Part shown: piece after piece, positions 45,335-53,852 of the stretch
Layout of the letters: each line of letters opens with the position of its first letter
How positions within the stretch are numbered: the first letter of the stretch is position 1
Assembly (NCBI RefSeq): GCF_000014585.1
Contig: NC_008319.1
Span: 682,001 to 746,000, forward strand
DNA from: Synechococcus sp. CC9311
GTDB taxonomy: Bacteria; Cyanobacteriota; Cyanobacteriia; PCC-6307; Cyanobiaceae
Length of the DNA: 64,000 nucleotides
Reading direction: 5' to 3'
Made by a program: the position numbers and the translations under genes
Notes under the pieces: generated by a model
Databases searched by the model: none
Seen by the model: only the letters and a program-made list of their open reading frames with translations
What the model was told of the DNA's origin: nothing

Positions 45335-45741
45335 CTTCAGGTCCCTGCTCCAACAGTCTCAACAAGACGTGGGTTGTTCCTTTGGTAGGCAATGCCTTGC
45401 GCGCCACGCCAATCGATACTCCATCTGCACCGTCCTAGGTGCCCTACGGAGAACACGACCCCACACCTAGAGCCCCGGCCCCAGGTGATCCTGCAGACAG
45501 TCGCTTCGCGCCAATCTTTCAGTTCACTGTTTTCGATACGAGGTTCAGTCTTCCGCGATACAGATTCACTGATTAATGGTTTGCGATATGAATAAACGAG
45601 CGAGCTAGGCCGTCTTTTCCATCTGGGAGAGGCGGCCTCTCCTTATGGGGCTTTGTTGTCGTTAGTGCTCAGCAGTTCTGACGTGGATGGCATGAACAGG
45701 CCTCTTACTATTGGCTTTGAAAGAAGAGCTCTTGGGTTTCA
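45335..45741 (+). other. Gene-poor stretch with a 14-bp hairpin
   Basis: No supported protein gene. Contains an imperfect but fully paired 14-bp hairpin at 45607-45638 (AGGCCGTC... / ...GGCGGCCT with three G-U pairs, loop ATCT). No poly-T follows. It could be the end of a small RNA. Confidence 0.4.
45607..45638. terminator. Long hairpin, possible terminator or sRNA element
   Basis: Arms 45607-45620 and 45625-45638 pair over 14 positions with three G-U wobbles; the loop is ATCT. Because no T tract follows on either side, its role is uncertain. Confidence 0.4.
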
Positions 45742-49867: not shown

Positions 49868-50077
49868 CTAGGAACCACCGCCCACGATGGTGACGATCTC
49901 GAGGTTGTCACCGTCTTGAACCTGCTGGGCTTCCCAGAGTTCTGGCGTCAGGATTAAGCCGTTGTATTCCACAACAACCAGCCGTGGGTGATGGCCAAGT
50001 TGCTGGATCACTTGATCCAGCCTTGCTGCTGATGGGTCAAGGCTGCGCCGTTCGCCGTTCACCGTGTAATGAGCCAT
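49868..50077 (-). CDS. thiS: Sulfur carrier protein ThiS
   Basis: 69 residues, ubiquitin-like beta-grasp ending in the required GGGS-type Gly-Gly tail (IVTIVGGGS, with two extra residues to trim). An AAGGAG site lies 9 nt before ATG. Carries sulfur for the thiazole of thiamine. Its usual neighbour thiE is 2.6 kb upstream, the gap being filled by unknown ORFs. Confidence 0.88.
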   Translation of the reverse strand: MAHYTVNGERRSLDPSAARLDQVIQQLGHHPRLVVVEYNGLILTPELWEAQQVQDGDNLEIVTIVGGGS

Positions 50078-50583
50078 CTACTTCAACTCCTTGCTTCTAC
50101 TGGGTTTCTGGTGATGCTTTGACTGAACCCTATGCCCTTGATCTATGCCCCCTTCCGATTTGTTAATAGTCGGTAGGTCCTGCTCCGATGGCATAGCAAG
50201 GAGTTCAGCTGGTAGTGAAGTGGCAATTAGACATGGCATCTCATGGAGGGTGGCATTGCGCCACCGTTGCTTCAGTTGTGGAATGGGTTCTCGGGCGCCG
50301 TGTTCCTTTGGTTGTCTCCATGGCTGTCAGTGAAGACGTGCATGTCATCCATTCCCAAGCATTTAACTCTGCACTGTCTGTTAAATAGTGGAGAGAATGC
50401 CAACCCGCTGGCATCATCAATTGTAGCCACTCTGGGTCGATCAGCATTAAGGAGCGAAGGGCCTATGTTTCAGCTGGAGGTGGGCTAGGTGAGGTGGTTA
50501 GGGCCTGCGCTATGGCGAGATGCCCTCAGGTGATTTGGCCAAAATCCTAAAGCTTGATAAAGTGACTCAGCTAAAACGATTAA
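50078..50583 (+). other. Accessory stretch next to thiS
   Basis: No firm gene. A coding-like open frame from ATG 50233 (MASHGGWHCATVASVV...) reaches TAG at 50386 and continues open to 50548, which may be a decayed gene. No TPP riboswitch sequence is recognised in this region. Confidence 0.3.
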
Positions 50584-50751
50584 ATGGCAGAACACACCTC
50601 CAAGCATTTCACGCTTTTGAAACTGGAGGATGCATGGATGCTGAAATCTTCCCATGTCACCAAGGATCAGGATGGAGACTGGATGGTCACCAACGGTGAA
50701 CTTCATGAATTGCTGGAGTTATTGCAGTCAGCAAAGAACGACTTTCAATGA
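50584..50751 (+). CDS. Small unknown protein, 55 residues
   Basis: MAEHTSKHFTLLKLEDAWML... ending SAKNDFQ. Amphipathic, charged, coding-like composition, no recognised domain. No clear ribosome site. It stands opposite in direction to the thi genes. Confidence 0.45.
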   Translation: MAEHTSKHFTLLKLEDAWMLKSSHVTKDQDGDWMVTNGELHELLELLQSAKNDFQ

Positions 50752-51120
50752 ATCATGCAAGTACTGTGGTGCTATACGGCAAAAAGGACTAACGAGCCTT
50801 TGTAGAGCATTCCAGGCACAAGCTTTGTATGGCTAGATGAGAAGCGTTTGCCCTGCGAAGGGCATCTAGTAAGCATTTCAGTAACAATTTTATCTATTGC
50901 AGTCAGGGTAGCTTCAGCTTAAGCCTCAGCAGCTTTGACTGATAGTGGGTCTGGAATTGACTTATCAGTTGCAAAAGTAGCTGAAAGATCGTCCTCACGC
51001 AGATGTCTGAATGGGATTGTCGATCTCTGATTGGTAAGCACTTGGGCTGTTATGTGTTGTGAAAAAGGTTATGTAAAAGCCACCTTCAAAGGATTAGGCC
51101 TAAGTAAAAGAGTTGAATCG
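50752..51120. other. Short gene-poor stretch
   Basis: Nothing supported in these ~370 bases; sequence is AT-rich and shows no repeat or hairpin I could confirm. Confidence 0.35.
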
Positions 51121-51255
51121 CTAGGGTTGTCTTGAATCCTCTTCACTGTGTTCTTCCTCTCCGGGAACCTCAGGTTGAAGTTGTTGCTCCACCCACTGGC
51201 TAAGCATGAGCAGAAGGAAGCCGTGTGGTCTGAGGATGTGGTTGTTCTGATTCAA
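51121..51255 (-). CDS. Small unknown protein, translationally coupled
   Basis: 44 residues from TTG 51255 (MNQNNHILRPHGFLLLMLSQ then VEQQLQPEVPGEEEHSEED), hydrophobic middle and very acidic tail. TTG overlaps the upstream stop as TTGA, so it is probably the third ORF of this operon. Not in any family I know. Confidence 0.4.
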   Translation of the reverse strand: MNQNNHILRPHGFLLLMLSQWVEQQLQPEVPGEEEHSEEDSRQP

Positions 51256-51938
51256 TTGGTATCAGTTTTGGTTGCTGTAGATTTGTTTTTAGTCATGCCT
51301 AGGGTTTTGTAATAAGCAGCTTCTAAAGCGCTCTCGTAATTCCTGAGGTGCTTCCTAATGCTTGCCTCTACCTCAATATTTGTAGGAGGTAGTGGTGGTT
51401 TAAGTGTCACCCAATAAGGCGACATAAGGGGGTCTATTGTGCAGCGGCTGCCCTCAGGCCAGTGTTGGGTCAGCTCGAATGGATTGCTGTTGTGAATAAC
51501 ATTGCTCATCCACTTAGAGTGTTTGCGATTTATCCATCTATGTGCTTGTGTGATGCGAAATGTGATCACATCCATCACAAACTTGTCCCACTTGTTCTGC
51601 TTCTCCAGCTCATTCCGCTTAAGTCTCAGAAGACGCAAGTAGTGGCCATTGTGATGTAATTGGCATTGGAGATAGAGGTGATCTCTTCTCCTGTAGCAGG
51701 TACGCCTAAGGGTCTGCGTAAGTCGTCTTAGGGCCTCTGCATGGGCTTTTTTCTGCTGTTGTTTGTCGTAGGCTGTCTTTTTGTCAGGAGCCCGTAGAAG
51801 GGCATCTAGTTGTGTCTTGCAGAAGGGATTGTCTTGAAATGAATAGAGAAGATCGTAGTGATTAATCTTCCCTTTTTGTATCTCCGAGGTTGGGCGGTGG
51901 AAGCGAGTAGGCGAAGGAGGTCTATTGGCGTTGTTCAT
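51252..51938 (-). CDS. Unknown basic protein, 228 residues
   Basis: From ATG 51938 (MNNANRPPSPTRFHRP). Very basic with Arg/Lys/His/Trp-rich central part (RLTQTLRRTCYRRRDHLYLQ, QAHRWINRKHSKW), no membrane span, no domain known. Nucleic-acid binding is a guess from composition. The start overlaps the end of the upstream gene by 17 bp, and the stop overlaps the next ORF by 4 bp. Lower GC than core genes. Confidence 0.6.
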   Translation of the reverse strand: MNNANRPPSPTRFHRPTSEIQKGKINHYDLLYSFQDNPFCKTQLDALLRAPDKKTAYDKQQQKKAHAEALRRLTQTLRRTCYRRRDHLYLQCQLHHNGHYLRLLRLKRNELEKQNKWDKFVMDVITFRITQAHRWINRKHSKWMSNVIHNSNPFELTQHWPEGSRCTIDPLMSPYWVTLKPPLPPTNIEVEASIRKHLRNYESALEAAYYKTLGMTKNKSTATKTDTN

Positions 51939-52257
51939 TGATTGGACCCGGCTGGGCAATATTTGTCTGCGTAGAAGCAGGCTTAAGCGCAAGTGGTTTA
52001 GTGGGAGGTTTAGGAGCTTCGTGTGGAGCTGCTTTGACGTCTACACGCTTAACGAGAACATCAAAGTAATAGCCCGTATTCTCTCTTTTCTTTCTACGCT
52101 TTCCCTGAGCTTCTAGTGAAGAGCTCATGAGTGGATTTTGTGTAAATGTTTCAGGCGTCTTTTTGTGAATTGATTTGTTTGTCGATTCGCTTTGGGCTAT
52201 GAGCAATCGCAATATCTCAGCGGTTATGGGTGAGTATGTTCGTGAGCGTTGAGGCAA
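51922..52257 (-). CDS. Unknown protein, 111 residues
   Basis: TTG 52257 is the only clear start (MPQRSRTYSPITAEILRLLI); the frame stays open upstream for about 30 more codons (AYLSLFHLPQ...), so an unrecognised start is possible. Basic middle (KRRKKRENTGYYFDVLVKRV) and a proline-rich tail (EAPKPPTKPLALKP). No domain recognised. First complete ORF of the minus-strand island operon. Confidence 0.5.
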   Translation of the reverse strand: MPQRSRTYSPITAEILRLLIAQSESTNKSIHKKTPETFTQNPLMSSSLEAQGKRRKKRENTGYYFDVLVKRVDVKAAPHEAPKPPTKPLALKPASTQTNIAQPGPINEQRQ

Positions 52258-52403
52258 ATGAAAGAGTGACAGGTAAGCCTTGGCTTGGATAATTCTCCTG
52301 GTAACGCAAGAAGAATGGACAGTAGGGCTCGTGCTTGCTTCCCTTCTCTATGTGTTTGCTGCTTAGATTGATGATGATGGTAGAGATTTAAGAAAAAATG
52401 ATC

Positions 52404-52538
52404 CTATAAATCTTTGATCTGCTCCTTAAGTTGTTTCTGGAGTTCTCTTGGTCTGCGATCCATATGATTCAAAGCAGCAAGGAGATTTTCAGGAGCTAAT
52501 GCCTCCTGCTCTTTGTTCACTTTCTCAGGATTCTCCAA
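52404..52538 (-). CDS. Possible truncated ORF upstream in the island
   Basis: Reading NPEKVNKEQEALAPENL then MDRRPRELQKQLKEQIKDL to TAG at 52404; very charged and coiled-coil-like. The open frame extends to a stop near 52588, but only weak start codons (TTG 52538, GTG) are present, so it may be a C-terminal fragment of a lost gene. Confidence 0.3.
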   Translation of the reverse strand: MENPEKVNKEQEALAPENLLAALNHMDRRPRELQKQLKEQIKDL

Positions 52539-52634
52539 GTCCTTCAGATCATGAGCAGCTCTGTACTCCGTTATGAAGCTCCTCGACCTGTTGAGGAGTT
52601 AAGAGTGAACGGCATGGCCCCAAAGCAAGGGGGG

Positions 52635-53696
52635 TTAAGCGAGGGTTTGGAGCAGGGTCCGGCTGGCTTCTTCCGGATCATTGGAACTCATGATCGCGCT
52701 CACGACGGCGACGCGTTGTGCGCCGGCTGCGCGAACCGAGGGAATCGTTTCAATATCGATGCCACCGATCGCAAACCAGGGCACGGCCGCGTGACGACTG
52801 GCTTCCGTCACCCAGCTCAGGCCGGCCGGGCTGAGATCGCGCTTGGTCTTGGTGGCGAAGACGGGGCCAACGCCCAAATAATCGGCGCCCGCTTGCTGGG
52901 CCTCGAGCAGGTGCTCGAGGCGGTGGGTGCTGCGTCCGAGCAAGCGTTCTGGGCCGAGCAGCTGTCTCGCTTCTGAGAGGGGAAGGTCGTCCTGGCCGAG
53001 ATGCACGCCATCGGCATCCACCAAAAGCGCCAGATCAATGCGGTCGTTGACGATGAATAGTGCCTCAAAGCGACTGCAAAGTGTTTTTAGGGCTTGTGCT
53101 TCCAGTAAGCGTTGTTTGTCATTGCCCTGTTTGCGGCGGTATTGAACCAGGCTGACGCCGGCCATCAGAGCGGCTTCAACCCCGTGCAGTAAGCGCTCCA
53201 GGTTGTTGTCTCGATCGGGATCCGTGATTAGGCAAAGCTTGGCGCCCTCGAGGCGTTCCTGTCTGTGCTGTCGTCCGCAGGCTTCGAGAATCCGCACCTC
53301 AAGGTCATAGAGCCCGTAGCGGATCTCAGCTGCGGTGCTGGCCAGGTCTGGATCGAGATTCCGCCCGAATTCCTCCAACACGCGCAGGGCTTCCTGCACC
53401 CGGCTGGCATTGGCTTTGATGATCGCTGGCGCGGAGCAACGACTCGTTTGAGCGGGATGGCCCAGACCGGCGGCAACGTCTGTTGCGGTGGAACGGGCCC
53501 GGCGGTAGCGATCGTGATGCTGTTGCCCCAATCGCTGCCGCCAGTCTTTGAGTGGTAAGACGAGATCGTCCCGATCCAGTCCAAAGCGACACCAGTCCTC
53601 AATGACACGCAGCCCTTCTCGTGCTCGATCCAGGTTGGCGTCGATTAGCCGCGCCACTCGCAGCTTGGCGTCTGCTTCGACAACCATCAGCTCCAT
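52635..53696 (-). CDS. thiE: Thiamine-phosphate synthase with N-terminal ThiD2-like domain
   Basis: About 353 residues. N-terminal ~120 residues (LIDANLDRAREGLRVIEDW, NASRVQEALRVLEEFGR) match the ThiD2 domain often fused to ThiE; the C-terminal part is ThiE (LVQYRRKQGNDKQRLLEAQ, VNDRIDLALLVDADGVHLGQ, GRSTHRLEHLLEAQQAGAD, GPVFATKTK, AIGGIDIE). Joins HMP-PP and thiazole phosphate to thiamine phosphate. ATG 53696 is chosen. Confidence 0.95.
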   Translation of the reverse strand: MELMVVEADAKLRVARLIDANLDRAREGLRVIEDWCRFGLDRDDLVLPLKDWRQRLGQQHHDRYRRARSTATDVAAGLGHPAQTSRCSAPAIIKANASRVQEALRVLEEFGRNLDPDLASTAAEIRYGLYDLEVRILEACGRQHRQERLEGAKLCLITDPDRDNNLERLLHGVEAALMAGVSLVQYRRKQGNDKQRLLEAQALKTLCSRFEALFIVNDRIDLALLVDADGVHLGQDDLPLSEARQLLGPERLLGRSTHRLEHLLEAQQAGADYLGVGPVFATKTKRDLSPAGLSWVTEASRHAAVPWFAIGGIDIETIPSVRAAGAQRVAVVSAIMSSNDPEEASRTLLQTLA

Positions 53697-53732
53697 GGCA
53701 GTCTGAGAAGGATCGCATGCTCCCCGGCTGCC

Positions 53733-53852
53733 ATGGACAACAGCGGATCCGAGAGCACCATGCACGTGCTCGTTTGGGGGATCATCCTCCTGGGCGGTAT
53801 TGGTGTGTTCATCGTCTGGGGACTGTCGAATGCTTACCCAGCTGCGGCCTGA
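53733..53852 (+). CDS. Tiny single-span membrane protein, 39 residues
   Basis: MDNSGSESTMHVLVWGIILL... ending WGLSNAYPAAA. One strong membrane span; internal ATG 53760 would give 30 residues. Divergent from thiE and overlapping the ribF end by 19 bp. Size and layout recall tiny NDH-1 or photosystem subunits, but identity is not shown. Confidence 0.5.
   Translation: MDNSGSESTMHVLVWGIILLGGIGVFIVWGLSNAYPAAA

Follow-up and report, generated by a model that had tools for sequence, protein, structure and literature searches.

A composite insertion between thiE and thiS of Synechococcus sp. CC9311 is, in its main part, probably the truncated end of a T7-like-cyanophage satellite

The window analysed here is a stretch of 64,000 nucleotides, bases 682001-746000 of the single-contig genome (2,606,748 bp) of Synechococcus sp. 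CC9311. Within it, the genes thiS and thiE are separated by 2557 bp. Two further genomes of the genus, G014 and G023, are needed to describe what lies between them, p131 and p105 being proteins of 131 and 105 aa encoded in G023. The features of the locus, in window coordinates, are these:

49868-50077, minus strand: thiS, by Pfam match
50067-52604, no single strand: the whole insertion between thiE and thiS, composite, 2538 bp, by comparison with eight relatives
50075-50092, minus strand: new thiS start codon with AAGGAG upstream, both from the insert, by sequence comparison
50584-50751, plus strand: conserved small gene of 55 aa, by homologue matches and a G014 copy
51121-51255, minus strand: ORF of 44 aa, a possible fragment, judged to be no gene (other-frame reading)
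51216-52604, minus strand: putative remainder of an integrative element's late-gene end; 51216 is where homology with the G014 copy starts
51252-51938, minus strand: gene for a basic orphan protein of 228 aa, ATG start, under purifying selection
51922-52128, minus strand: gene for a 68-aa protein, read from the internal ATG of the 111-aa ORF; relative of p105, with a 17-bp overlap with the 228-aa gene
51922-52257, minus strand: ORF of 111 aa, TTG start
52404-52538, minus strand: ORF of 44 aa, TTG start, a C-terminal stump of p131; p131 similarity extends over 52422-52559
52598-52615, minus strand: thiE-side junction, with what may be a decayed copy of the former thiS start; weak, by eye
52635-53765, minus strand: thiE, carrying a ThiD2 domain, by Pfam match

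The insertion is genuine and specific to the CC9311 genome. Both thiE and thiS were matched in 29 of the 31 genomes of the genus, CC9311 counted, and in all 28 others possessing both genes the two share a contig, with at most about 90 bp between them, bearing out the earlier sequence-only reading that they are normally adjacent. Among eight close relatives, homology on the thiE side breaks off at 52605 in six and at 52620 and 52623 in the remaining two, while on the thiS side it restarts at 50066 in every case; the insert is therefore 2538 bp long, in agreement with the roughly 2.5 kb first proposed. In the six relatives with the break at 52605, the flanks overlap by 3 bp. The insert is also AT-richer, as had been noted, with a GC fraction of 0.462, compared with 0.553 in the window and 0.614 in thiE. 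It sits on the start of thiS, a gene that has thereby lost its original start codon and takes an ATG, with the ribosome-binding-like AAGGAG ahead of it, from the insert. No tRNA was found near the insert, and promoter- and terminator-like sites fell below the shuffle mean. The single Rfam match lay outside the insert, far under the gathering score, and was judged spurious; a 35-bp match of 50081-50115 elsewhere in the genome falls within an apparent membrane-protein gene and was set aside.

The sequence-only reading had placed four genes on the thi strand in this interval and proposed one operon. The positions and strand of all four ORFs were confirmed, as were both overlaps, of 17 bp (51922-51938) and of 4 bp (TTGA, 51252-51255), but the number of genes is smaller. 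ORF 51121-51255 was rejected, since it merely reads the DNA around the element's end and past it in a different frame. The 111-aa ORF encodes a shorter protein: it aligns with its relative from an internal ATG, giving 68 aa, some 10 residues ahead of that ATG being similar. The upstream 44-aa ORF is a stump. The 228-aa ORF would comprise 246 aa were it to start at an upstream TTG. As to the operon, the order and overlap of the 68-aa and 228-aa genes (the 68/228 pair) are kept in G014, as an operon would predict, while the proposed membership of four genes falls.

The 228-aa gene is real, coding and under purifying selection. None of 1000 dinucleotide shuffles of the insert gave an ORF of 228 codons, the maximum being 226. 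Its protein occurs in two of the 31 genus genomes, CC9311 and G014, with 64% identity, and in G014 the gene overlaps the 68-aa gene in identical manner. Across 228 codons, the two copies differ at 60, 41 and 86 sites in codon positions 1, 2 and 3, respectively. The true frame has a dN/dS of 0.28, the other sense frames 0.87 and 1.22. The antisense frames gave 1.05, 0.39 and 1.84, the low value being taken for a mirror of the sense-frame constraint. The 68-aa gene yielded 0.37, on just 68 codons. This selection signal spans the time since the copies parted, and present-day action of the 68/228 pair does not follow from it. That time is long: dS between the two copies is 0.88, compared with 0.16 for thiE, 0.14 for thiS and 0.21 for a gene flanking the G014 copy, which we take to be crtISO-like. 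The copies therefore parted long before their hosts, and hence at least one of them was acquired from outside.

The sequence-only reading recognised no known family among these proteins, and the profile searches concur, with no match above a curated cut-off or of any weight. For the 228-aa protein neither Pfam nor NCBIfam gave a match, and the best others were phrog_4930 (E 0.023), a PDB entry (E 0.17) and a very weak match to JetD in PADLOC (E 0.0037, 14 bits). Neither the protein nor the two-row alignment found a relative in viral contigs, phages or genome contigs, and one match among plasmids (E 0.2) was dismissed as noise. A profile search of 400 genomes of the family brought up 14 genomes at E <= 0.1, two of them with the true copies; the other matches had E-values of 0.0066 or worse, extended over no more than 63 of the 249 positions and were put down to chance. 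An AlphaFold model of low confidence (mean pLDDT 47.5) predicts a mostly helical protein.

In G014 the 68/228 pair lies at another locus, between the presumed crtISO-like gene and a 181-aa ORF, and far from thiE (572 kb against 185 kb). This locus is empty in CC9311 and in five of six relatives, the flanks being 113-115 bp apart, and the sixth relative aligns partly; G014 carries 1.49 kb in place of 113 bp. By eye, the stretch at this site (L002:1393-1452, L201:2885-3045) continues as a small ORF in CC9311. Homology between the window and G014 begins at 51216, 36 bp beyond the stop codon of the 228-aa gene, at the insertion junction of the G014 copy, and 51216 is therefore taken as the end of the element. 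Upstream of the pair both copies have p131-like sequence, clear in the window and weak in G014 (E 0.05, with stops present).

The link to a larger element came through the 44-aa stump. A search with it gave matches at E <= 1 in 10 of the 31 genomes, of which CC9311, G023 and, for its position, G014 (0.05) were kept. The match to the C-terminus of p131 in G023 had an E-value of 3.8e-7 in the genome search and of 1e-11, with 19 of 39 residues, in BLASTP. Downstream of p131, G023 has a 40-aa ORF and then p105, whose N-terminus matches the 68-aa protein of G014 (BLASTP 2e-4; tblastn with the leader 1.7e-7); the window's 68-aa protein alone did not match p105. The order of the p131 and p105 relatives agrees with that in G023. 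Since both copies of the pair have p131-like sequence and a p105-like gene, two of the three genes belong to the late block of this element. Upstream of p131, G023 encodes a 253-aa protein (p253) and, beyond about 1 kb with no clear gene, a 1087-aa T7-type RNA polymerase (PHROG_414, E 2.5e-118), together with a 335-aa protein (p335), a tyrosine integrase (phrog_1, E 2.2e-50) and an HNH protein. The last matched 18 families, mostly HNH, with one 'terminase small subunit' (2.8e-4) among them. Two of the parent loci are:

G023, 916927-933692: integrated element, 16.77 kb, missing from six of six relatives examined
G312, contig QCSL01000048.1: related element in Synechococcus sp. AG-670-B23

The G023 element has the chromosomal integration, the integrase and the defined ends by which a satellite is recognised. 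A 12-bp direct repeat, CTTCAGTCGTAA, stands at both ends, and the element adjoins the 3' end of what is presumably the homoserine O-succinyltransferase gene; in one relative, G030, its site holds roughly 1.3 kb of other DNA. The end repeat resembles the thiE-side junction of the window by eye, a likeness that is possibly chance and was set aside. No capsid, portal or large terminase was recognised among 14 proteins of the element scanned against PHROGs, the six ORFs over 200 aa included. For three proteins over 200 aa (253, 265 and 345 aa) no family was matched; if they are divergent virion proteins, as they could be, the parent would be a prophage. Neither p253, p131 nor a third parent protein has a relative in the phages or viral contigs. 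The model of p253 (mean pLDDT 62.1) matched nothing in PDB or BFVD at E <= 0.001, and matches of the parent proteins to PADLOC were weak (PbeC, LmuB).

Related elements occur elsewhere in the family. The polymerase query matched 27 of the 400 genomes, many of them distantly, these being perhaps ordinary phage-type polymerases, and it had no match in CC9311. The polymerases closest to that of G023 are in G312 (53% identity), G011 (42%) and G007 (35%), with remnants in G019 (70%) and G307 (46%). A p131 profile, incorporating the window's 44-aa row, found seven of the 400 genomes at E <= 0.01, and in five (G023, G312, G011, G293 and G019) a polymerase match or ORF lies within about 2.5 kb of p131. 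In G293 this polymerase is distant (34% over 183 aa), and a second p131 copy on another contig has no polymerase among the matches listed; the p131 match of G019 is weak (0.004). Beside p131 in CC9311 and G170 there is no polymerase. p253 is common to G023, G312, G011 and G293, the last having also a primase/helicase-type protein at its related locus. The layout in G023, G312 and G011 is alike (p126, p335, polymerase, p253, p131, p105) at 40-53% polymerase identity, and so compact a common order suggests one lineage rather than separate decay. No intact element examined has a homologue of the 228-aa protein. In G019 the polymerase remnant is seen to run directly into a p131 stump (L174, about G019:C1:1218750-1219750); this locus is another decayed end like that of the window. 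Two minus-strand ORFs in and beside the G011 element (G011:C1:1632449-1632688 and 1636044-1636349; L170, L171) resemble, we believe, precursors of Nif11-type peptides.

Set against these parents, the main part of the insert appears to have once been a longer element, from which everything before the last third of p131 has been lost: one side of the relic would be the element's own end, at 51216, and the other a truncation inside p131. No ORF of the insert matched an integrase or a polymerase. Being truncated inside p131 and devoid of an integrase, the relic should therefore not move by itself. The remainder, 50067-51215, is of other origin, and the insert is thus composite. This part contains the 55-aa plus-strand gene, which the first reading had overlooked. 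Its family has matches in 37 of the 400 genomes, and its protein is identical to that of the G014 copy at another locus (dN 0) despite 10% base differences.

The parents share a short site with T7-like cyanophages. The stretch between polymerase and p253 gave, independently in G023 and G312, one phage match each. Both fell past the large terminase gene of S-TIP28 on the same spot (bases 45594-45640 and 45611-45636 of 45749), with E-values that are individually weak (2e-3 and 7e-3). Here G023 and G312 have in common the 17-mer TCTCACCGCATATCCAC, on the strand opposite to the polymerase and late genes. The same 17-mer is found exactly in 31 viral contigs. All 31 have it downstream of the large terminase match, at a distance of 44-61 bp (218 bp in one) and on the strand opposite to that match:

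L230:2115-2131 (S-TIP28) and L232-L262, opposite to the large terminase: 17-mer with hairpins, T7-like cyanophage

Among all 12-mers of the two polymerase-p253 spacers, those that recur in at least 5 of the 31 viral loci belong to the 17-mer block, to a second short block with GAGCACCACTTC, present in both G023 and G312, and to one further G023 spot. As the 31 loci had been chosen by the 17-mer, it is the second block that forms the independent part of this control. In DNA folds hairpins flank the 17-mer on both sides, with modest z values (G023 -1.5, G312 -2.7, S-TIP28 -2.6). In G307 the 17-mer, with two mismatches, lies beside the decayed polymerase remnant and is oriented opposite to it. 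Neither the G011, G007, G019, G293, G170 and G014 stretches nor the window showed the site in context when up to four mismatches were allowed, and at up to three mismatches it is absent from the window altogether.

A pause of the polymerase at a class II terminator serves packaging. In phage DNA such a terminator of a T7-type polymerase is placed in the concatemer junction by an extract of PMC11617373. A site that stands behind the terminase gene in phages and beside the element's own T7-type polymerase in the parents is thus a plausible packaging signal, and, judged from its place, we regard it as a candidate packaging or concatemer-junction site.

We consider it probable that an integrative element, most likely a satellite of T7-like cyanophages, left its truncated late-gene end as the main part of the insert. 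Intact parents integrate by their tyrosine integrase into marine Synechococcus-type genomes, encode a T7-type RNA polymerase of their own and have as their last part a run of small genes (p253, p131, p105, with variable extras). Upon infection by a helper phage, the element may excise, replicate and make its polymerase, which would transcribe the p253-p131-p105 late block, and the site shared with the terminase-end region of the phage would allow the helper's terminase to package the element. The 228-aa gene would be one of the variable late genes, closing the block in a different branch of the element family, and the 68-aa gene with the overlapping basic 228-aa gene would be what remains at the element's end in the window. 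We infer a role for the pair, the 228-aa product perhaps acting in packaging by binding nucleic acid or a protein of the helper phage. The best reading of the window insert is accordingly that of a probable relic of a phage satellite and not itself a member, lacking an integrase and mobility of its own.

The strongest competitor, although unlikely, is that the relic derives from a temperate T7-like prophage, the parents being degenerate prophages with most of their virion genes lost. T7-like cyanophages (Autographiviridae, such as S-TIP28, S-CBP42 and Syn5) share with the parents a single-subunit RNA polymerase and, in several contigs, a tyrosine integrase, and behind their large terminase stands the conserved site that recurs in G023 and G312; part of PMC8776855 mentions remnants of phage integration in these hosts. 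Yet the compact layout common to G023, G312 and G011 persists at the polymerase divergence given above, capsid, portal and large terminase went unrecognised among the parent proteins scanned, and the polymerase is only 24-27% identical to those of the best-ranked phages among the matches listed. S-TIP28 measures 45.7 kb, while the measured parent is chromosomal and 16.8 kb in length. According to the same portion of PMC8776855, isolates of marine Synechococcus and Prochlorococcus lack intact prophages, and integration of T7-like cyanophages was only transient in its experiments.

Less probable still, we think, is that the 68/228 pair is an autonomous or recombining cassette kept for the benefit of the host, for example in phage defence, for which the element was a landing site only. 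Such a cassette would fit the purifying selection on the 228-aa gene, the very weak JetD match and the form of the two known copies, both short inserts of like size (1.39 kb, 51216 to 52604, and 1.49 kb in G014) without integrase. A mere landing site is harder to reconcile with the p131-like sequence upstream in both copies and the p105-like gene directly before the 228-aa gene in each. A host operon tied to thiamine metabolism and co-transcribed with thiE and thiS, as the position of the ORFs between these genes on the same strand might suggest, is scarcely credible, for the ORFs are missing from the thiE-thiS interval in 28 of 28 other genomes, the G014 copy is remote from thiE, and an opposite-strand gene and the new thiS start separate the pair from thiS. 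Chance ORFs in non-coding DNA, a description true of ORF 51121-51255, are equally implausible as an account of the locus, such an origin of the 228-aa gene being refuted by the shuffle and dN/dS results.

The probable satellite origin invites comparison with known systems. A putative 'relic' prophage of marine Synechococcus was reportedly described by Flores-Uribe in 2019; judging by title alone, it resembles the window in being a phage-derived relic in a marine Synechococcus chromosome. PICMI, a phage satellite of marine bacteria, is like the parents in its chromosomal location, its integrase, its mostly unknown genes and the lack of a recognised full virion set, according to sections of PMC10803314 that also name tycheposons and VEIMEs among marine phage satellites. 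PICMI integrates at fis, whereas the G023 element does not. Moreover, the parents, which would be induced and packaged as satellites, encode a T7-type RNA polymerase and have a site in common with the terminase end of T7-like cyanophages, and it is these two possessions that differ from known satellites and prophage relics. A search of the open-access literature gave no description of these elements in the titles or opening lines of abstracts among the matches listed, and the portion of PMC3744912 consulted makes no mention of this locus; some of the elements may already figure in the original tycheposon, VEIME or 2019 relic-prophage papers.

More tentatively, the parents may constitute a new kind of satellite, equipped with its own T7-type polymerase and terminase-end site, transcribing its late genes itself and packaged by the helper. 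The window would hold a domesticated end of such a satellite, and its 68/228 pair would have been retained because it continues to interfere with helper phages; taken whole, this proposal is doubtful. That a T7-type polymerase and the terminase-end site occur in integrated elements suggests that lytic T7-like cyanophages have chromosomal satellites in the same hosts. Such elements would provide definite loci for satellite biology in major primary producers of the ocean and indicate a candidate packaging site of the T7-like cyanophages, and an orphan insertion in a thiamine locus becomes, on the satellite reading, the probable scar of a mobile element.
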